The translations under genes and the position numbers were made by a program. 25,254 nt of DNA from positions 1-25,254 of IMG/VR virus record IMGVR_UViG_3300030101_002866. One strand, given 5' to 3'. The notes beneath the pieces were generated by a model that had not been told where the DNA came from, ran no database searches, and saw only the letters and a list, made by a program, of their open reading frames with translations. This document shows positions 3,617 to 21,573 of the stretch, one piece after another (the first letter of the stretch is position 1; each line of letters starts with the position of its first letter). The DNA comes from a virus.

Positions 3617-3642
3617 GAGCAGTGTCTTTGAAGACACCGCTC
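3617..3642 (-). repeat. Spacer hairpin with palindrome copy 2
   Basis: GTGTCTTTGAAGACAC (3622-3637) extended by GAGC/GCTC arms, giving an ~11-bp stem with one mismatch. It sits about 15 nt upstream of the ATG at 3602 and just after the stop of the amidotransferase fusion gene. On the minus strand no U-run follows, so it is not a simple terminator. The flanks (ATTAATCAG upstream, ACTGCTCATAAATC downstream) match copy 3 closely. No CUGAUGA...GAAA core is present, so it is not a ribozyme. Confidence 0.75.
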
Positions 3643-4740: not shown

Positions 4741-4770
4741 GTAGCAGTGTCTTTGAAGACACAGAACTAC
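4741..4770 (-). repeat. Leader hairpin with palindrome copy 3
   Basis: GTGTCTTTGAAGACAC at 4747-4762, framed by GTAG/CTAC arms (4741-4744 and 4767-4770). It lies in the leader between the promoter at 4791-4822 and the ATG at 4725. Sequence on both sides is nearly the same as around copy 2 (ATTAATCAG ... ACTGCT(A)CATAAATC), so the two spacers share ancestry. No ribozyme core is present. Confidence 0.75.
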
Positions 4771-4832: not shown

Positions 4833-4994
4833 CTATCTACTGACAACTGCAGTAAATTTTTCTCGAAGAATCCACTTGTACTTTCCGATGTTCTCGTTGT
4901 ACACTCTGTCGATTGCTTCCCATTTCGTATAAGCAGGTACGACTTTGATTTGTCGCCCTGCATACCTGACCTTAAAGTATTTCTGTCTTTCCAT
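4833..4994 (-). CDS. Small basic hypothetical protein (53 aa)
   Basis: ATG 4994 overlaps the TAA of the upstream gene by one base (TAATG), and the frame runs to TAG at 4833-4835. The product MERQKYFKVRYAGRQIKVVP...KYKWILREKFTAVVSR is Lys/Arg-rich with alternating hydrophobics, suggesting a small beta-alpha domain. It was chosen over an overlapping reading in another frame because of the start/stop coupling and its composition. Function unknown. Confidence 0.65.
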   Translation of the reverse strand: MERQKYFKVRYAGRQIKVVPAYTKWEAIDRVYNENIGKYKWILREKFTAVVSR

Positions 4995-5344
4995 TACTTC
5001 TCGTTTTGATTAACAACTTTGCCGTCTACCATTCTCTCAACTCCGATTATCTTATGTCCCTTTCGACACATATAGCTATACCAATTCTCGAAATGCTTTT
5101 CGTTGTTAAAGTCTTTGACATTGGTTCCATAGTTACCATACACAGATTTAATTGTGATGCAGTATGTTACTTTCTCTTGCGGTTTGTAGTCCAACTTGAA
5201 CTGCTCCATCTTTTCGTGGATATTCTTACCGCTATAGTCCTTGTAGTTACAAGGAAAGTCTACAAGTTTGCTATTAAAGTTTGAAGAGTAAACTTGTGTA
5301 AATGATTTGACTGCTTCATCAGTCCATTCGAATTTAGTTTCCAT
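4994..5344 (-). CDS. Hypothetical 116-aa protein downstream of a hammerhead ribozyme
   Basis: The start is ATG 5344 (METKFEWTDEAVKSFTQVYS); a longer in-frame reading would pass through the ribozyme at 5364-5427 and is rejected. The middle contains QEKVTYCITIKSVYGNYG and the end has FENWYSYMCRKGHKIIGVER. It is soluble. No family recognised. If the ribozyme cleaves, its mRNA would begin with a 25-nt leader carrying a 5'-hydroxyl. Confidence 0.68.
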   Translation of the reverse strand: METKFEWTDEAVKSFTQVYSSNFNSKLVDFPCNYKDYSGKNIHEKMEQFKLDYKPQEKVTYCITIKSVYGNYGTNVKDFNNEKHFENWYSYMCRKGHKIIGVERMVDGKVVNQNEK

Positions 5345-5363: not shown

Positions 5364-5427
5364 GACATAGAGAGCAGTGTCTTTGAAGACACCACCCTTT
5401 CGTTCATTGAGAACTCATCAGTATGCC
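5364..5427 (-). ncRNA. Type I hammerhead ribozyme (HHR3), palindrome copy 4 as stem III
   Basis: Read on the minus strand from 5427: stem I strand GGCAUA, core CUGAUGA (5421-5415), stem II GUUC-UCAAU-GAAC (perfect 4 bp), core GAAA (5401-5398), a long stem III in which GGGUGGUGUCUU pairs through AAGACACUGCUCU around a CA loop (13 bp counting A15.1-U16.1, with three G-U pairs), C17, then UAUGUC pairing back to GGCAUA (6 bp, one G-U). All invariant core nucleotides are present. Predicted cleavage is after C17, between 5370 and 5369. The 5' end overlaps the TAG of the TM-protein gene and cleavage would lie 25 nt before ATG 5344. Confidence 0.85.
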
Positions 5428-5648
5428 TACGCTCTATCTTCTTTCCACACTGCGATATTTATGAGTAGTAAAAACCAACCAATTACTAAACAAAATATAC
5501 TCGTTGCTGAGGCATAAGTGAACTCAACGAAACTAAAATACTCTGCATTGTTTTTCCATATGTCAATTAGAACTCTAAGAGCCATTGAATAAACGAATAG
5601 TGTTACGATGTTAAGTGTTACATTTTGAATGTTGTTAAATGTCTTCAT
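5427..5648 (-). CDS. Two-TM membrane protein (73 aa)
   Basis: Two hydrophobic helices are visible: about residues 9-30 (VTLNIVTLFVYSMALRVLID) and 46-68 (ASATSIFCLVIGWFLLLINI), separated by a short polar loop NNAEYFSFVE and ending in charged WKEDRA. It is likely an inner-membrane protein. It sits between the amidoligase gene and HHR3, with HHR2 in its 5' leader. Function unknown; it could anchor or assist an envelope-acting pathway encoded by its neighbours. Confidence 0.68.
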   Translation of the reverse strand: MKTFNNIQNVTLNIVTLFVYSMALRVLIDIWKNNAEYFSFVEFTYASATSIFCLVIGWFLLLINIAVWKEDRA

Positions 5649-5672: not shown

Positions 5673-5724
5673 TCTGTTTCGACCTTTCGGTCATCATCAG
5701 GATAGGCACACACCTATCGACAGA
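5673..5724 (-). ncRNA. Type III hammerhead ribozyme (HHR2)
   Basis: Minus strand from 5724: stem III strand UCUG, U16.1, C17, then stem I GAUAGG-UGUGUG-CCUAUC (6 bp), core CUGAUGA (5700-5694), one extra U, stem II GACC-GAAA-GGUC (4 bp, GAAA tetraloop), core GAAA (5680-5677), and CAGA closing stem III with UCUG. Predicted cleavage is between 5719 and 5718, after GUC. Stem III is open, so the ribozyme body would stay on the 70-nt leader of the TM-protein gene (ATG 5648). The only departure from the textbook fold is one unpaired base between A9 and stem II. Confidence 0.85.
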
Positions 5725-5760: not shown

Positions 5761-6759
5761 TCAGAAATAAAACTCTTCTTTGAACTTTCTTACATCAGTG
5801 TATTCGTTTGGTGTGTAACCTCTCTTGTAACACCCTCTACGACCACCAAACTGATAGGTTAACTCTCTATCATTACTCCACCATCCCTCAAACCATCCGA
5901 CCATCTCTAAGTCCATCTTACTACCATTGATGACTTTCTGCATCTTCTTAGCTAAAGCAATAGTCTTTGCAACTTTCTCAGCATCGTTGTTGAACATCGA
6001 TAATAAGATTGGCTTTACTGCATTACAGAAATGGTGTAGTGATGAATTTTGCTTGTTCACTGCGAAATCAATCAACTGATAAAAGAACTCGTATCTGCGA
6101 ATCGTTTGCTTCACTGATGTGAATCTTGATGGAACTCTGAACTCTACAACTCCATCGCCATCTAAAGTTTTGTAGTTAGCAATCGTGTACTTTGTACTCC
6201 ACTCTGCAGATGTGTCCATAGTGATGTTACCTCTGCAAAAGTAATTGTTCACTCTGTGTCTGTAGATGGCATAAACTAAACCACTGAACTTCTTCATTCT
6301 GTCAGATAACTCTCTACCACTCATATCCTTAACTCCCAATGTAATGTGACCACCACATTTTCTGTTAGATGGGCTGAACTCATCGTTAATTATTTTCTTA
6401 GCTTGGTGGAACATATTGAACACTTTCGTTCTCCACATTGATTTGTCTACCAATGGTAAGATGTGAGTAACTGCCTCAGCACCACAACTACCATCGTGTT
6501 CAAATCCACATAACAGAGGATACTCTTGAACTGCACTCCTATGAAATCTGTTCTTCTCGAACTCCATTCCGATTGTGAATATACTTGAAAAATCATCAGC
6601 CACATTTACTCTTGCACTACTCGGTAGACCATTGATGTCCACTGCTTCTGCTTTGTTCAGTTTGTATGGATGTGGCTTACTTCCATAGCTTGAGATTCTA
6701 CCTCTTGAAGACTCGTTGTGAATCTCGAACTGAACTCCTTGTTGATTTAAATTTCTCAT
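5761..6759 (-). CDS. Putative COOH-NH2 amidoligase (glutamine-synthetase-like fold), 332 aa
   Basis: Signature segments in order: TIGMEFEKNR (Glu66/Glu68 region), CGFEHDGSCGAEAVTHILPL at 84-103, KCGGHITLG at 134-142 and DGVVEFRVPSR near residues 200-212. The set GxExE, DGSxxxEAVT, CGxHhxxG and VEFR is what is seen in the ATP-dependent amidoligases with a GS-like fold that join amines to carboxylates. Those enzymes are known to occur beside GAT-II and GGCT/AIG2 proteins, as here. The substrate could be a peptide, the cell wall or a protein tail. Flanked 5' by HHR1 and 3' by HHR2. Confidence 0.78.
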   Translation of the reverse strand: MRNLNQQGVQFEIHNESSRGRISSYGSKPHPYKLNKAEAVDINGLPSSARVNVADDFSSIFTIGMEFEKNRFHRSAVQEYPLLCGFEHDGSCGAEAVTHILPLVDKSMWRTKVFNMFHQAKKIINDEFSPSNRKCGGHITLGVKDMSGRELSDRMKKFSGLVYAIYRHRVNNYFCRGNITMDTSAEWSTKYTIANYKTLDGDGVVEFRVPSRFTSVKQTIRRYEFFYQLIDFAVNKQNSSLHHFCNAVKPILLSMFNNDAEKVAKTIALAKKMQKVINGSKMDLEMVGWFEGWWSNDRELTYQFGGRRGCYKRGYTPNEYTDVRKFKEEFYF

Positions 6760-6783: not shown

Positions 6784-6835
6784 TCTGTTTCGTCCTTTCG
6801 GTACTCATCAGCACAGACACTCATCTGTGGACAGA
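6784..6835 (-). ncRNA. Type III hammerhead ribozyme (HHR1)
   Basis: Minus strand from 6835: stem III strand UCUG, U16.1, C17, stem I CACAG-AUGAGUGU-CUGUG (5 bp), core CUGAUGA (6811-6805), stem II GUACC-GAAA-GGAC (four pairs with one bulged A), core GAAA (6791-6788), then CAGA pairing with UCUG. Predicted cleavage is between 6830 and 6829 after GUC, 70 nt upstream of the amidoligase ATG at 6759. From CUGAUGA to the closing CAGA it matches HHR2 at nearly every position, and the one stem II change differs together with its partner, while the stem I sequences differ. This is the pattern expected of two functional relatives. Confidence 0.85.
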
Positions 6836-6861
6836 GGATAGTGTCTTTGAAGACACTACCC
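6836..6861 (-). repeat. Hairpin with palindrome copy 5, abutting HHR1
   Basis: GTGTCTTTGAAGACAC at 6841-6856 extended to a 12-bp stem (GGAUA/UACCC side with one G-U pair). It ends exactly where the stem III strand of HHR1 begins. On the minus strand it is preceded by CAAAGGGTAG, close to the CGAAAGGGTGG of HHR3, suggesting it derives from the same type I stem III. After HHR1 cleavage it would lie a few bases from the new 3' end of the upstream mRNA. Confidence 0.8.
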
Positions 6862-6869
6862 TTTGTGAT

Positions 6870-7496
6870 TTAGATTTCTCTTGCTATATCTCTCATAGTG
6901 TTAAACATTTTCATCAGAGATTCATCGATGTCGATTTCTAACTCACCATTGATTGAGATTCCGCTCTCACTAAGTCTTACAGAGTAACCCTTTTCCCCAT
7001 TTACACCATCCTTAGCGATGCTGAATGTAGCATAAGTTTTCTCTCTTGCAACTTCGTTATCCTCTGTACCGCTCTCTTCGTTCTTAGCATACTTCAGTAA
7101 CGCTTCGATACTTCTCTGTACATCTTCGCCATTATTCTCTGCTCTTGTACACTCTCTCTTGAACTTCGTTACCACAGATGATTGCTCTATCTGTAGCTTA
7201 CCCGCTTTGTTCATCTTGTAACCGAATGACTTCTGCCATCCGAATACTCTGTTGAAGAATACTTCGGTATTGTTCCATTCGATACCCTCATCTTCTAACT
7301 GAGTCTTTGTCTCAGCTTTGTTAAACCATTCTAACGATTGGCTAACTAACTTCGCTAACTTCAGTGATTTGTCGAACTTGTTCTTCTTCGCATCAGATAC
7401 TTCAGTGATTAGATTCTCGATTGTAGCAAAGTTTACTTGGCTACGAACTGATGGCAGTGCTAAAAAGTCTGCCTCGATTTGCATTAAATTTCTCAT
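6870..7496 (-). CDS. Hypothetical 208-aa protein, first gene of the ribozyme-containing operon
   Basis: Helical N-terminal two thirds (AKKNKFDKSLKLAKLVSQSL, EWNNTEVFFNRVFGWQKSFG, VVTKFKRECTRAENNG, RSIEALLKYAKNEE) and a beta-rich C-terminal part (YATFSIAKDG, YSVRLSESGISING, ELEIDIDES). No family recognised. The N-terminus MRNLMQ resembles that of the amidoligase (MRNLNQ), and both start regions share ATGAGAAATTTAA. It is driven by the promoter at 7558-7588 through a ~55-nt leader with a small GAGGA/TCCTC hairpin. Confidence 0.7.
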   Translation of the reverse strand: MRNLMQIEADFLALPSVRSQVNFATIENLITEVSDAKKNKFDKSLKLAKLVSQSLEWFNKAETKTQLEDEGIEWNNTEVFFNRVFGWQKSFGYKMNKAGKLQIEQSSVVTKFKRECTRAENNGEDVQRSIEALLKYAKNEESGTEDNEVAREKTYATFSIAKDGVNGEKGYSVRLSESGISINGELEIDIDESLMKMFNTMRDIAREI

Positions 7497-8335: not shown

Positions 8336-8336
8336 G

Positions 8337-8411
8337 TACCCCTATTAGGACTCGAACCTAAAACCTACAGATTAGAAGTCTGTTGCTCTATCCATTTGAG
8401 CTATAAGGGTA
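8337..8411 (-). tRNA. tRNA-Arg (anticodon UCU)
   Basis: Minus-strand cloverleaf of 75 nt. Acceptor TACCCTT/AGGGGTA (one G-U), D arm GCTC...GAGC, anticodon stem ACAGA/TCTGT with loop CTTCTAA (anticodon TCT), and T arm TTAGG-TTCGAGT-CCTAA. No CCA is encoded. It decodes AGA, the Arg codon this AT-rich genome uses heavily. Confidence 0.92.
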
Positions 8412-8665: not shown

Positions 8666-10267
8666 ATGCAACAAGGATTCACTCCGAAAGAACTTCACTT
8701 TTCTGATGAAGGTAGAACCAAACTCATTAGTGGTATAAATAAAATAGCTGCCGCAGTAAAATCAACTTTAGGTCCAAGAGGTAACACAGTGCTTATTGAA
8801 TCACCGGAACACCTTCACGGTATAACCGTAACTAAGGATGGTGTAACAGTGGCTAAATCTATTTCATTATTAGACCCGGTTGAGAACCTTGCGGTTAGGA
8901 TGATGAAAGAGGCAGCAGACAGAACTGCTTCCGCAGCCGGTGATGGAACAACAACCGCTATTGTATTAGCTGAAGCATTAGTTAATGCAGGAACCGAATT
9001 GATTGACGACAATCGAACCGAAGTGTTAAGACACATTGTAGAAGAAACCAAACAGATATCGAAGTCGCTAAAAGTAAAAGGTAAGAAACTTGATTCCAAA
9101 AGACTTCGTGATGTAGCTATTATATCTGCGAATAATGACAAGCAGATTGGAGACATCATTGCTGATGTATATGAAAGCGTAGGTAGTGATGGTGTAGTTA
9201 CAGTAGAAAAAAGTAAAACCTCATCTACTTATTATGAAACCACAAAAGGTATCAAAGTAAAAAGAGGATATGCCTCCAACCTATTTATCAATGACCAAAA
9301 GCGTGATGAGTGTGTCTTCGAAGACACTTATGTATTGGTTTGTGATACAGAGATAAATAACATCTTACAAATAGAGAACATCTTGAAACCAATTATCAAT
9401 GAAGGTAAAAAATTATTAATGATTGCTCATTGCTCACAGAATGTAACAAATACATTAGCAGCTAATGTAATTAAGAACGGATTAAAAATTTGTACAATAC
9501 AACCACCTGACTTTGGATATAGACAACACGAGCTGATGCAGGATATCGCAGTTAGCGTGGGTGCAAAGTATTTCAGCGAGAAAACAGGCGATGACTTGAG
9601 TTTGATTAATTTCAACGATTTGGGTCACTGTGCTAAGGTGATAGTTAGCCGGGACTCAACGGTCATCGTTAAAGATGATAATGAAACATCTGAAGAAGTA
9701 AAAGAAAGAGTAACACAACTTCAAGAAGCTCATAAAAATACTAAGCAGAAAGAAGATAAAGAATTTATAAACCAACGTATAGCTTCGCTATCAGGCGGTA
9801 TAGGTGTGGTATATGTGGGAGGTAATACAGACCTTGAACAAAAAGAACTGTATGATAGAGTGGATGATGCGGTATGTGCAGTTCGCTCTGCACTTGAAGA
9901 AGGTATACTACCCGGAGGTGGATTATCACTATATAATTTTCATAAAAGCTATACAGTAAAAGAAGCAGGAGAAAAAGACTACGCAAAAAAAACTGCTTAC
10001 GCAGTTTTAGCTGAAGCGTTAAAGTCACCACTTTATCAGATATTAGAAAATGCAGGATTAGATGCTGATAGAGTTTACGATGATTGCAAAGGAGCACTTT
10101 ACGGTTACGATGTAAAAAAAGAAAAGTACGGTTACCTGATGACACTCGGAGTCATAGACCCCGTGAAAGTCACAAGACAAGCACTGCAGAATGCAGTATC
10201 AGTAGCGGTTACTATTTTATCAACCAATGCTATCGTGACTATGGCACGTAGCTATGAAACAAAATAA
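8666..10267 (+). CDS. groEL: GroEL-like chaperonin (Cpn60), 533 aa
   Basis: Full-length group I chaperonin that folds proteins in an ATP-driven ring with a Cpn10 lid. ATP-site motifs are intact: TLGPRG (34-39), TKDGVTVAK with Asp58 (E. coli Asp52), GDGTTTA (92-98), RVDDAV with Asp401 (Asp398), EEGILPGGG (E. coli EEGVVAGGG) and IDPVKVTR with Asp498 (Asp495). The apical domain is recognisable (RGYASNLFIN; PDFGYRQ where bacteria have PGFGDRR). The C-terminus ends ARSYETK and lacks the GGM-repeat tail. It starts at ATG 8666 behind a good promoter. The next gene overlaps the stop (TAATG). It probably folds a phage virion protein or replaces host GroEL. Confidence 0.93.
   Translation: MQQGFTPKELHFSDEGRTKLISGINKIAAAVKSTLGPRGNTVLIESPEHLHGITVTKDGVTVAKSISLLDPVENLAVRMMKEAADRTASAAGDGTTTAIVLAEALVNAGTELIDDNRTEVLRHIVEETKQISKSLKVKGKKLDSKRLRDVAIISANNDKQIGDIIADVYESVGSDGVVTVEKSKTSSTYYETTKGIKVKRGYASNLFINDQKRDECVFEDTYVLVCDTEINNILQIENILKPIINEGKKLLMIAHCSQNVTNTLAANVIKNGLKICTIQPPDFGYRQHELMQDIAVSVGAKYFSEKTGDDLSLINFNDLGHCAKVIVSRDSTVIVKDDNETSEEVKERVTQLQEAHKNTKQKEDKEFINQRIASLSGGIGVVYVGGNTDLEQKELYDRVDDAVCAVRSALEEGILPGGGLSLYNFHKSYTVKEAGEKDYAKKTAYAVLAEALKSPLYQILENAGLDADRVYDDCKGALYGYDVKKEKYGYLMTLGVIDPVKVTRQALQNAVSVAVTILSTNAIVTMARSYETK
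9312..9327. repeat. 16-bp palindrome copy 7 (inside groEL)
   Basis: GTGTCTTCGAAGACAC, here a perfect 16-bp palindrome, encoding V-F-E-D-T in the apical domain. It differs from the main form by one centre base. Confidence 0.75.
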
Positions 10268-18529: not shown

Positions 18530-19092
18530 TGAAATCTATTTATCAGTTTATAGTTAGTCCTGTAAATAACAAGCGATATAACAACACTAAAAAAGTTGGT
18601 GATGTTGATTTAGTTATAAGTACGTCAGAAGAAAATCATACTACATCAAATCGTGAAGCAACGGTTATTGAGACTCCAATCAACTATAAGGGTCCTATTG
18701 AAAAAGGAGACACATTATTAGTACACCACAATGTTTTCAAGTTCTACAATGATATGTACGGCAAGAGACAAAGTGGAAGGAGCTTTCTCAAGGAGAATGT
18801 TTTTCTTATAGACAGTGAACAGTTTTTTGCTTATAAGAAAGACGGGGAATGGAATGGATATGACAGGTATTGTTTTTTAAAACCTGTTCCGGTAGAAGAA
18901 AGTTATATTTACAAACCCTTCAGTACAGAGCCTTTGATGGGAGAAGTAGTAATAATTAATCAAGGTTTAAAAGACAAAGGCGTAAAGGTTGGTGACAAAG
19001 TGTGTTACAAACCAAATCAAGAGTATCAATTTAAAGTGGACGACCAAACTCTATATAGATTGTATGACCACTGTATTACTTTAATTTTATGA
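18529..19092 (+). CDS. GroES-fold-like protein with two Cpn10-type halves (187 aa)
   Basis: The C-terminal half (114-187) reads like Cpn10: YCFLKPV (DRVLVKP), MGEVVIINQGLKDKGVKVGD (G-x-V-x-x-x-G...VKVGDxV), then FKVDDQTLYRLYDHCITLIL (xDGxxYxxLxExDILxxh). The N-terminal half (1-105) repeats the order: YQFIVSP, REATVIETP (44-50), IEKGDTLLVHHNVF (58-70), and VFLIDSEQFFAYK (91-103). So this looks like a tandem or swollen GroES-like protein. It may work with the viral GroEL or host GroEL like T4 gp31, or use the fold structurally. The call is by pattern; remote homology needs a profile search. Confidence 0.6.
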   Translation: MKSIYQFIVSPVNNKRYNNTKKVGDVDLVISTSEENHTTSNREATVIETPINYKGPIEKGDTLLVHHNVFKFYNDMYGKRQSGRSFLKENVFLIDSEQFFAYKKDGEWNGYDRYCFLKPVPVEESYIYKPFSTEPLMGEVVIINQGLKDKGVKVGDKVCYKPNQEYQFKVDDQTLYRLYDHCITLIL

Positions 19093-19364: not shown

Positions 19365-21573
19365 CATATTATACAAAGTTGTAAAAGACTATGTTCCTAA
19401 GAATGTTTTATCGAATAAAAATCGTAATCATTCTTGGTTGTATGGTTACAATGATAAGTACGATTTAATTGTTATTTCTAAGTCAGGTCAAATAGGAGAG
19501 ATACTATATATTTCAGGTCTTTACATAGCTTTACCGAAAGAACCTAAAGAGTGTCTTCAAAGACACTCCACCTCATCAGAACAATATTGGGAAAGGCAAG
19601 AGTTACCAAAACCTTTGAGTAAGATATCATCCATCTTTCAGTGGAATGAAATGCCATCTGAATTTAAATCAAGATGGGTGGATTATATAGAAGCTGAGTT
19701 TGACAACAGAGAGTTTGGTTTTTGGTTTATGAATAAAAGTAAACCAACTTACATTACAGGAGCTCACTATATGTATTTACAGTGGACTAATATTGATGTA
19801 GGATATCCTGAATACAGAGAAGCAAACAGAATATTATATATATTTTGGGAAGCATGTAAAGCAGACAAGAGAAGTTTTGGAATGATATATCTAAAGATTA
19901 GACGTTCAGGATTTTCTTTTATGTCTTCTTCTGAATGCGTCAACACAGGAACACTTGTAAAAGATTCTCGAGTTGGTATACTTTCTAAAACAGGTTCTGA
20001 TGCTAAGAAAATGTTTACAGATAAAGTTGTTCCAATTAACAGTAGACTTCCATTCTTTTTTAAACCAATTATGGATGGAATGGATAAACCTAAAACTGAA
20101 TTAGCTTATCGTGTACCTGCATCTAAGATTACCAAAAAGAATATGTATGATGTGGAGGAGGATGAAATAGAAGGGTTAGATACCACAATAGATTGGAAAA
20201 ATACAGATGACAACTCATATGATGGTGAAAAACTTCTGCTATTAGTTCACGATGAAAGTGGAAAATGGTTAAAACCAAATAACATATTAAATAATTGGCG
20301 TGTTACAAAAACTTGTTTACGATTAGGTAGTAGGATTATTGGTAAATGTATGATGGGTTCTACATCAAATGCTTTAGCAAAAGGTGGGGGAAACTTCAAG
20401 CAATTATTTTATGACTCTGATGTAATGAAGCGTAATGCAAACGGTCAAACAAAAACAGGATTGTATTCTTTATTTATTCCAATGGAATGGAATATGGAGG
20501 GGTTTATTGATAGGTATGGTCAACCCGTAATAGACGATGTGGTTGATAAAGTAAGGGGTATAGATGATGAGTATATAACACAGAGTGCGTTACAGTATTG
20601 GAATAACGAGGTAGAGTCATTAAAGCACGACCCTGATGCGTTGAATGAATATTATAGACAGTTTCCAAGAACAGAGTCTCACGCATTTAGAGATGAAAGT
20701 AAACAATCATTATTTAATCTTACTAAGATATATCAACAGATTGATTATAATGATGCAATGATTTCAGAACAACATTTAACAAGAGGTTCTTTTCATTGGG
20801 TTAACGGAATCAAAGATACTTCAGTTTATTTTACACCCGACAAAAGAGGAAGATTTATTATTACTTGGGTTCCGACCAAAGGAATCCAAAACAATATCTA
20901 TACCAAAAATGGTAAGAGATATCCCGGTAATGAACACATAGGTGCTTTTGGATGTGACTCATATGATATTAGTGGAACAGTAGGTGGTAAAGGTTCTAAT
21001 GGTGCACTACACGGACTTACTAAGTTTAGTATGGAAGAAGCACCAAGCAATGAGTTTTTTTTAGAATACATAGCAAGACCACAAACCGCAGAGATATTTT
21101 TTGAAGATGTTTTAATGGCTTGTGTATTTTATGGTATGCCAATACTTATAGAGAACAACAAGCCACGATTGTTATATCATTTCAAAAATAGAGGGTATAG
21201 AGGTTTCTGTATGAATCGTCCCGATAAACAATTTATCAAGCTATCAAAAAGTGAAAAAGAATTAGGAGGTATACCGAACTCAAGCGAAGATGTAAAACAA
21301 GCACACGCAGCAGCTATTGAATCCTACATAGAATCACACGTAGGATTATCACAAGATGGAGATATGAAATCAATGTATTTCAATCGTACATTAGAAGATT
21401 GGGCAAGGTTTGATATTAACAACAGAACTCAGTATGATGCTTCTATTAGCTCCGGATTAGCTATAATGGCGTGTCAAAAGCATTTATATATGCCTGAAAA
21501 AAAAGAGTCAAGAATTATGATTAACTTTGCAAGGTATACTAACGAGGGAAAATTAAGTCAGATAATTAGATGA
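19342..21573 (+). CDS. terL: Terminase large subunit (TerL), 743 aa
   Basis: DNA-packaging motor ATPase plus nuclease. An adenine/Walker A-like segment is KIRRSGFSFMSSSECV (the R-x-x-G-x-S variant), Walker B is LLLLVHDESGKW with Asp304-Glu305, and the coupling motif is MGSTSNALAKGG. The nuclease part has GAFGCDSYDISGT with metal ligand Asp539, PILIENNKPRLLYHF, and a C-terminal DVKQAHAAAIESYI region. The start is TTG 19342; no ATG occurs in frame for the first ~100 codons, and the frame is closed upstream at 19324. A palindrome copy lies at 19551-19566 inside it. Length fits the long TerL proteins of crAss-like and related Bacteroidetes phages. Confidence 0.9.
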   Translation: MQNEGQNSILYKVVKDYVPKNVLSNKNRNHSWLYGYNDKYDLIVISKSGQIGEILYISGLYIALPKEPKECLQRHSTSSEQYWERQELPKPLSKISSIFQWNEMPSEFKSRWVDYIEAEFDNREFGFWFMNKSKPTYITGAHYMYLQWTNIDVGYPEYREANRILYIFWEACKADKRSFGMIYLKIRRSGFSFMSSSECVNTGTLVKDSRVGILSKTGSDAKKMFTDKVVPINSRLPFFFKPIMDGMDKPKTELAYRVPASKITKKNMYDVEEDEIEGLDTTIDWKNTDDNSYDGEKLLLLVHDESGKWLKPNNILNNWRVTKTCLRLGSRIIGKCMMGSTSNALAKGGGNFKQLFYDSDVMKRNANGQTKTGLYSLFIPMEWNMEGFIDRYGQPVIDDVVDKVRGIDDEYITQSALQYWNNEVESLKHDPDALNEYYRQFPRTESHAFRDESKQSLFNLTKIYQQIDYNDAMISEQHLTRGSFHWVNGIKDTSVYFTPDKRGRFIITWVPTKGIQNNIYTKNGKRYPGNEHIGAFGCDSYDISGTVGGKGSNGALHGLTKFSMEEAPSNEFFLEYIARPQTAEIFFEDVLMACVFYGMPILIENNKPRLLYHFKNRGYRGFCMNRPDKQFIKLSKSEKELGGIPNSSEDVKQAHAAAIESYIESHVGLSQDGDMKSMYFNRTLEDWARFDINNRTQYDASISSGLAIMACQKHLYMPEKKESRIMINFARYTNEGKLSQIIR
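19549..19568. repeat. Palindrome copy 8 (inside terL), 20 bp
   Basis: GAGTGTCTTCAAAGACACTC: the 16-bp core in the opposite orientation to most copies, extended by two base pairs on each side, coding K-E-C-L-Q-R-H-S. Confidence 0.75.

Follow-up and report, generated by a model that had tools for sequence, protein, structure and literature searches.

Type III hammerhead ribozymes in hairpin-ribozyme-AUG cassettes of a phage genome fragment and their probable role in message processing

The window analysed here, a 25,254-base virus fragment from IMG/VR taken at its full length, contains two type III hammerhead ribozymes, HHR3 and HHR2, and one type I hammerhead, all within the minus-strand block (Table 1). 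HHR3 is located between a 208-aa gene and an amidoligase-like gene, with 40 nt from the upstream stop codon to its predicted cut and 24 nt from its 3' end to the amidoligase-like ATG, while HHR2 is located between the amidoligase-like gene and a 73-aa gene. The type I hammerhead precedes the next gene, for which the longer, mechanically defined ORF starts inside the ribozyme. A tRNA-Arg (UCU) gene was identified on the minus strand at 8336-8410, close to a groEL-like gene (8666-10267) and around the boundary of the two oppositely transcribed blocks. The terminase and portal proteins are most similar to those of MW202828 (Manatee Spring; 74-76% identity), followed by the Flavobacterium elemo phages (45-47%), with the Cellulophaga and Tenacibaculum phages being more distant than elemo. 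A search of the phages collection at the DNA level with the HHR3 locus recovered no relative.

Table 1. Features of the ribozyme-containing minus-strand block. Ribozymes, helices and cuts are predicted.
Feature	Position	Strand	Remark
208-aa gene, upstream of HHR3	6870..7496	-	No assigned function; adjoins the amidoligase-like gene in four relatives too
Stable hairpin GGGTAGTGTC-TTCAAA-GACACTATCC	6836..6861	-	Flush with HHR3 stem III
HHR3, type III hammerhead	6784..6835	-	Cut between 6830 and 6829
HHR3 stem III, 5' strand UCUGU	6835-6831	-	3' strand ACAGA, 6788-6784
HHR3 H17	C6830	-	Cut C6830/C6829
HHR3 stem I, CACAGA/UCUGUG	6829-6812	-	6 bp, loop UGAGUG
HHR3 core CUGAUGA	6811-6805	-	
HHR3 stem II, GUACC-GAAA-GGAC	6804-6792	-	4 bp, A bulged inside
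HHR3 core GAA	6791-6789	-	
Spacer from HHR3 to start codon	6760..6783	-	A/U-rich, 24 nt
Amidoligase-like gene (probable), downstream of HHR3	5761..6759	-	332 aa
HHR2, type III hammerhead	5673..5724	-	U inserted between A9 and stem II; cut 5719/5718
73-aa gene behind HHR2	5427..5648	-	
Type I hammerhead	5364..5427	-	Cut 5370/5369
Gene behind type I hammerhead	4994..5344	-	Likely true start ATG 5344, 19 nt past the ribozyme

The initial annotation had named the gene behind HHR3 an amidoligase gene. This is a probable assignment, which agrees with sequence motifs, a neighbouring glutamyl-cyclotransferase gene and a weak fold similarity of the modelled protein to glutamine synthetase and YbdK, but not with the searches of the 332-aa protein against Pfam and PHROG, which gave no match. 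The predicted structure is poor (pLDDT 48.5), and a PDB structure search with this model yielded no match under E 0.05, the top 14 being glutamine synthetases, YbdK-type ligases or Dop throughout. We refer to the protein as amidoligase-like.

Read on the minus strand from 6835 to 6784, HHR3 has the sequence UCUGU-C/CACAGA-UGAGUG-UCUGUG-CUGAUGA-GU(A)CC-GAAA-GGAC-GAA-ACAGA, where the slash marks the predicted cut. The three helices comprise an open stem III and closed stems I and II, as demanded of a type III hammerhead, and both parts of the catalytic core, C3UGANGA9 and G12AA14, are present. The A15.1-U16.1 pair is formed by A6788 and U6831, H17 is a C, i.e., not a G, and the 10.1-11.1 position is a Watson-Crick pair (G6804-C6792). 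Judged by its predicted fold, the segment is a complete type III hammerhead, for which cleavage is predicted. Stem I is paired as described initially, but over 6 bp rather than 5 bp, and stem III has 5 bp when the A15.1-U16.1 pair, an essential one, is included.

The Rfam model RF00008 matched HHR3 with 35.7 bits (E 2.3e-4 against all of Rfam and 5.6e-8 against RF00008 alone), which is below the gathering cut-off of 48.5 bits, as are the scores of its canonical relatives, of which the best reached 47.6 bits. Because of this score, HHR3 owes its classification as a type III hammerhead to its anatomy, and we did not assign it to RF00008. A covariance model based on 18 sequences, all from other phages and none from the window, gave 68.6 bits for HHR3 (E 9.6e-18) and 55.7 bits for HHR2, as compared to 13 bits for the best non-hammerhead place in the window. 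In 300 dinucleotide shuffles of the window, the hammerhead scanner identified a single type III candidate, whose score was 32; the genuine type III hammerheads of the window reached 38 and 41. Since the folding energy of HHR3 on its own is unremarkable (z -1.3), its support comes from the core sequence and from comparison. The core, the model score and the shuffles confirm the type III hammerhead proposed for the leader of the amidoligase-like gene.

HHR2 and HHR3 can be aligned without gaps over 59 nt with 78% identity and, from their sequences, look like paralogues. The type I hammerhead, GGCAUA-CUGAUGA-GUUC(UCAAU)GAAC-GAA-AGGGUGGUGUC(UUCAAA)GACACUGCUCU-C/UAUGUC, combines the core with three helices, of which stem I is open; its scanner score of 51 compares to 37 for the best type I candidate among the 300 shuffles, and the fold of lowest energy predicted for it is the hammerhead (z -3.7). 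No type I hammerhead was found at the equivalent place in the relatives. Its stem III is the hairpin GTGTCTTCAAAGACAC, which is repeated within the minus-strand block. Across 29 loci, we counted 121 occurrences of the 16-nt palindrome GTGTCTTNNAAGACAC, of which 26 immediately precede a type III hammerhead on its 5' side, 32 fall within ORFs and 63 are intergenic or elsewhere. The window has this palindrome on the minus strand at 6841-6856, 5377-5392, 4747-4762, 3622-3637 and 1696-1711, and in coding genes at 9312-9327 and 19551-19566. Here, the sequence itself has been kept, beyond mere pairing.

We compared the locus to five contigs that encode the amidoligase-like protein with 43-52% identity and in which most of the gene order is kept. 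Three type III hammerheads each were identified in L007, L008 and L011, two in L009 and one in L010. The site upstream of the amidoligase-like gene is occupied by a hammerhead in only one of four relatives (L009, 4911-4967), and by the hairpin alone in L007, L008 and L011. Conversely, the site downstream of the gene, which corresponds to HHR2, has a hammerhead in L007, L008 and L011, and none in L009. According to the initial annotation, the ribozyme would be refuted if the fold were absent from close relatives in which the flanking genes are retained. Such absence was found at the HHR3 site in three of the four relatives, but neighbouring gene starts carry hammerheads in all four, which argues for turnover of sites rather than for a chance motif.

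The helices show clear covariation. In an alignment of 13 sequences, 93.8% of the cells are paired, with 51 double-change cells compared to 17.9 in shuffles, and in an alignment of 128 distinct sequences 95.4% are paired, with 666 double-change cells compared to 188. Covariation was seen in all three helices in both alignments. Stem I is different in almost every copy, and all six of its pairs change on both sides in the 13-sequence alignment, yet it is 100% paired in both sets, which supports the natural covariation initially suggested from the two copies of one genome. These changes also bear on the possibility that the hairpin-hammerhead unit is a short repeat that moves or recombines with little benefit to the phage. 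Such spread would be consistent with the restriction of the HHR2/HHR3 identity to the ribozyme, with duplicated cassettes of 101-112 nt in L007 and L011, and with the variable presence of copies among syntenic sites. However, compensatory changes keep all helices and the position relative to the AUG is constant, which indicates purifying selection on function, and we consider selfish spread unlikely.

HHR2 and HHR3 differ in how stem II accommodates an additional base. In HHR2, the pairs are G-C, A-U, C-G and C-G, with a U left over ahead of the stem; in HHR3, they are G-C, U-A, C-G and C-G, with an A bulged inside. The claim of a shared extra base next to stem II is thereby upheld for the 13-nt stem II region, which both copies have, but not for the base itself, which in HHR3 is inside the stem and not beside the core. 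From the equal length and the ungapped identity of the two copies, the 13-nt region was probably already present in their common ancestor copy. A bulge like that of HHR3 was observed in L004 and possibly in L018 and L019 (GUUCC/GGAC, with an alternative U-G wobble pairing), and an inserted base like that of HHR2 in nine other copies. Neither form occurs in the hammerheads of L007, L008, L009 and L011, which are the most complete relatives, whereas an extra stem II base is found in unrelated phages (L004, L015-L017 and others). It is therefore not a mark of the wider lineage, and the suggested lineage-specific variant of the fold was rejected for the close relatives.

To survey the wider population, we scanned IMG/VR with patterns in which loop I, the core and the spacing were fixed and positions 10.1, 11.1 and 17 left open. 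The scans recovered 17 stretches with a 13-nt and at least 120 with a 12-nt stem II region, and a model search with a threshold of E 1 gave 158 matches, spread over 97 loci and with E far below the threshold in nearly all cases. Together with the first set, the model matches yielded 153 parsed copies (130 distinct) among the matches listed. In these 153 copies, the median distance from the ribozyme 3' end to the ATG is 23 nt (quartiles 19-29) and the median distance from the upstream stop codon to the cut is 40 nt; 7 copies fall within ORFs of at least 100 aa. In 119 of 152 copies, the ribozyme is preceded by a stable hairpin that abuts stem III and the last paired base of which is 4-5 nt ahead of the H17 cleavage base in 97 copies. 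Folding below -10 kcal/mol was obtained for 79% of the stretches that precede ribozymes, as compared to 22% of control stretches. The common layout is thus a stop codon, a hairpin, the ribozyme, about 23 nt and an AUG.

Two or more type III copies, and at most five, were identified in 36 of the 94 fetched loci. Most of the genes downstream of type III copies have no assigned function; those that could be named encode ATPases, an ArdC-like anti-restriction protein, DUF932, HNH and homing endonucleases, a clamp loader and glutamyl cyclotransferase. Type I hammerheads are frequent in the same loci (48 scanner hits, some in overlapping records). In about 10 kb of one phage contig, L086, the scanner detected seven hammerheads of type I along with one of type III, and several type I hammerheads each were seen in L115 and L062.

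The position 10.1-11.1 is G-C, U.U or A.A in all parsed copies, except for one G-U beside an inserted base. Among the 130 distinct sequences, H17 is C in 68 of the 78 G-C copies (inserted-base forms included), A in 36 of the 42 U.U copies and U in 5 of the 10 A.A copies. Outside the helices, the strongest couplings are 17-10.1 and 17-11.1, followed by couplings within loop I and between loops I and II; loop I is conserved as UGNGUG, and L1.2 and L1.4 with L2.3 are among the top couplings. Sequence weights were used in this analysis since single-linkage clustering at 80% or 75% placed nearly all sequences in one cluster. Within single phages, C17 is found in 15 of 18 G-C copies versus 1 of 19 U.U copies (p about 1e-6, with kinship ignored), and shared descent of sub-families may underlie the coupling. 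Mixed core classes (G-C, U.U, A.A and inserted base) were observed in single phages such as L007, L008, L011, L013-L016, L066, L078 and others, in which the cleavage-site base differs in step with the class. Base-pairing of H17 with 10.1, which the complementarity had prompted, was dropped: U17 is common with a G-C closer in the bacterial assemblies (by eye), and only the statistical coupling was therefore kept.

We consider it somewhat unlikely that these classes form a tuned set, in which interchangeable hammerheads of the G-C, U.U, A.A and extra-base types, each with a preferred H17 base and its own rate, would set the ratios of neighbouring gene products in an operon. The variants also touch on the question of decay, by which inactive hammerhead-like hairpins would be retained merely as structured leaders. 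The bulge in stem II of HHR3, the extra base of HHR2 and the frequent 10.1-11.1 mismatches elsewhere would be in line with such decay, which is quite unlikely given that the core nucleotides are intact and that the helices covary. Moreover, according to Perreault et al. (2011; PMC3088659), U.U at 10.1-11.1 is a natural variant that came as a surprise, and no other mispair is as active.

The fold, covariation, placement and recurrence of the cassette hammerheads are best explained if HHR3 acts in cis in gene-by-gene message processing with end protection, as part of a hairpin-ribozyme-AUG cassette, and we regard this as probable. Hammerhead cleavage generates 2',3'-cyclic phosphate and 5'-OH ends, and from this established chemistry we infer the ends produced in the cell; cleavage in the cell and the effects on RNA stability and expression are inferred likewise. 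In the phage, the cultured relatives of which infect Flavobacteriia, the intergenic cassette would be transcribed as part of the accessory or early block, whereupon HHR3 would fold and cleave at C6830/C6829. This would leave the upstream message with the stable hairpin (6836..6861) at its end, followed by some six nucleotides and a 2',3'-cyclic phosphate, and the amidoligase-like message would start with a 5'-OH and a 70-nt leader containing the remaining ribozyme. Together, HHR3, HHR2 and the type I hammerhead would split one long transcript into near single-gene mRNAs, the ends of which would resist exonucleases and 5'-phosphate-dependent decay, so that the level of each gene could be set separately. 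Against this reading, the bulged A in the 4-bp stem II may slow the reaction of HHR3, the HHR3-site copy is missing from most relatives that keep both flanking genes, and the Rfam score is below the cut-off.

The two same-strand ribozymes that bracket the amidoligase-like gene could also release a 1,111-nt RNA (6829-5719), the 5'-OH and 2',3'-cyclic phosphate ends of which an RtcB-type ligase could join to form a circular mRNA. The presence of several type III copies in many loci would agree with such excision, but single copies are common, the spacing between copies is variable, and circular or spliced products of phage clusters were sought and not found by Perreault et al. (PMC3088659). We hold circularisation to be very unlikely.

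The main rival to gene-by-gene processing is remodelling of the 5' leader, in which a triphosphate or long leader is exchanged for a structured 5'-OH leader near the start codon, with effects on stability or translation, and in which separation from the upstream gene is incidental. The tight 23-nt distance to the AUG agrees with this, as does a hammerhead in the cultured Flavobacterium phage vB_FspP_elemoA_7-9A (19081-19139, minus strand; 34.6 bits with model R1). This type III hammerhead has a complete core and helices, is located about 12 nt before the CDS 18854-19069, and would, by its position, trim the first leader of an operon, the upstream neighbour being divergent. Most copies, however, follow a stop codon at about 40 nt, with a stable hairpin immediately ahead of them, and this placement speaks for 3'-end formation too. 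We regard leader remodelling as possible though not probable as the main function, and both can hold together. The elemo ribozyme is not flanked by two genes of one strand, so gene separation cannot be the sole use.

In elemo record MT497017.1 (L180 2540-2900), a long leader precedes the hammerhead and the gene upstream is divergent, so that cleavage should free a leader RNA plus the mRNA. Over a 201-bp stretch around the elemo hammerhead, the 68 matching Flavobacterium phage records, which share one host strain, all show identities of 99% or more. With model R1, no match was obtained in MW202828 or in Maribacter phage Panino, Cellulophaga phages phi38:1 and phi13:2 and Tenacibaculum phage Gundel, the latter four chosen as cultured relatives by terminase and portal; only elemo matched. 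The same type III hammerhead, with a UGNGUG-type loop I, was observed in contigs, chromosomal or phage, of GTDB bacterial assemblies (L149-L174), mostly of Patescibacteria (Saccharibacteria, Parcubacteria and others). A search of the accessible literature for these copies found no paper.

The hammerhead as such is known, and the role of hammerheads in phages has been a question since 2011. Our additions are the cassette geometry, the size of the population missed by Rfam, the occurrence of A.A closers, the coupling at H17 and a hammerhead in a cultured phage, none of which we found in the openly accessible literature. A large population invisible to Rfam, with one repeated layout and often several copies per genome, points to action at gene borders, and the elemo copy makes the question testable. 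The natural core variants provide new data on which stem II closers are tolerated and on why the cleavage-site base changes alongside.

Type III hammerheads of the sTRSV type, which process the replication multimers of plant satellites, have a topology like that of HHR3, with a 6-bp stem I, a UGUG-type loop and a 4-bp stem II with a tetraloop. Unlike these RF00008-type ribozymes, the phage copies are located in mRNA leaders of DNA phages and score below the Rfam cut-off. The HDV-like theta ribozymes of gut phages are likewise self-cleaving phage ribozymes, but belong to another class that is tied to suppressor tRNAs and recoding (PMC10879173).

The closest parallels are the clusters in which hammerheads flank phage genes, where polycistronic RNAs of ~2 kb were cut in vitro, and in E. 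coli for one cluster, and for which gene-length processing of long phage transcripts was proposed (Perreault et al., 2011; PMC3088659). In both cases, several type I and type III hammerheads flank accessory phage genes, with the anti-restriction gene ardA behind hammerheads there (PMC3088659) and an ArdC-like gene here. Our copies differ in that they occur in phages of the Flavobacterium/Cellulophaga kind and in a fixed hairpin-hammerhead-AUG layout. About 40% of the type III copies among the matches listed have U.U or A.A at 10.1-11.1, a mispair that was at first rejected in the 2011 study unless activity was measured (PMC3088659). HHphage of the haloviruses HF1/HF2 is similarly located ahead of an early gene, a helicase, at 13 nt from its start codon, but this ribozyme has a 2-nt insertion beside C3, whereas HHR3 combines a normal CUGAUGA core with a bulged stem II (Perreault et al., 2011; PMC3088659).
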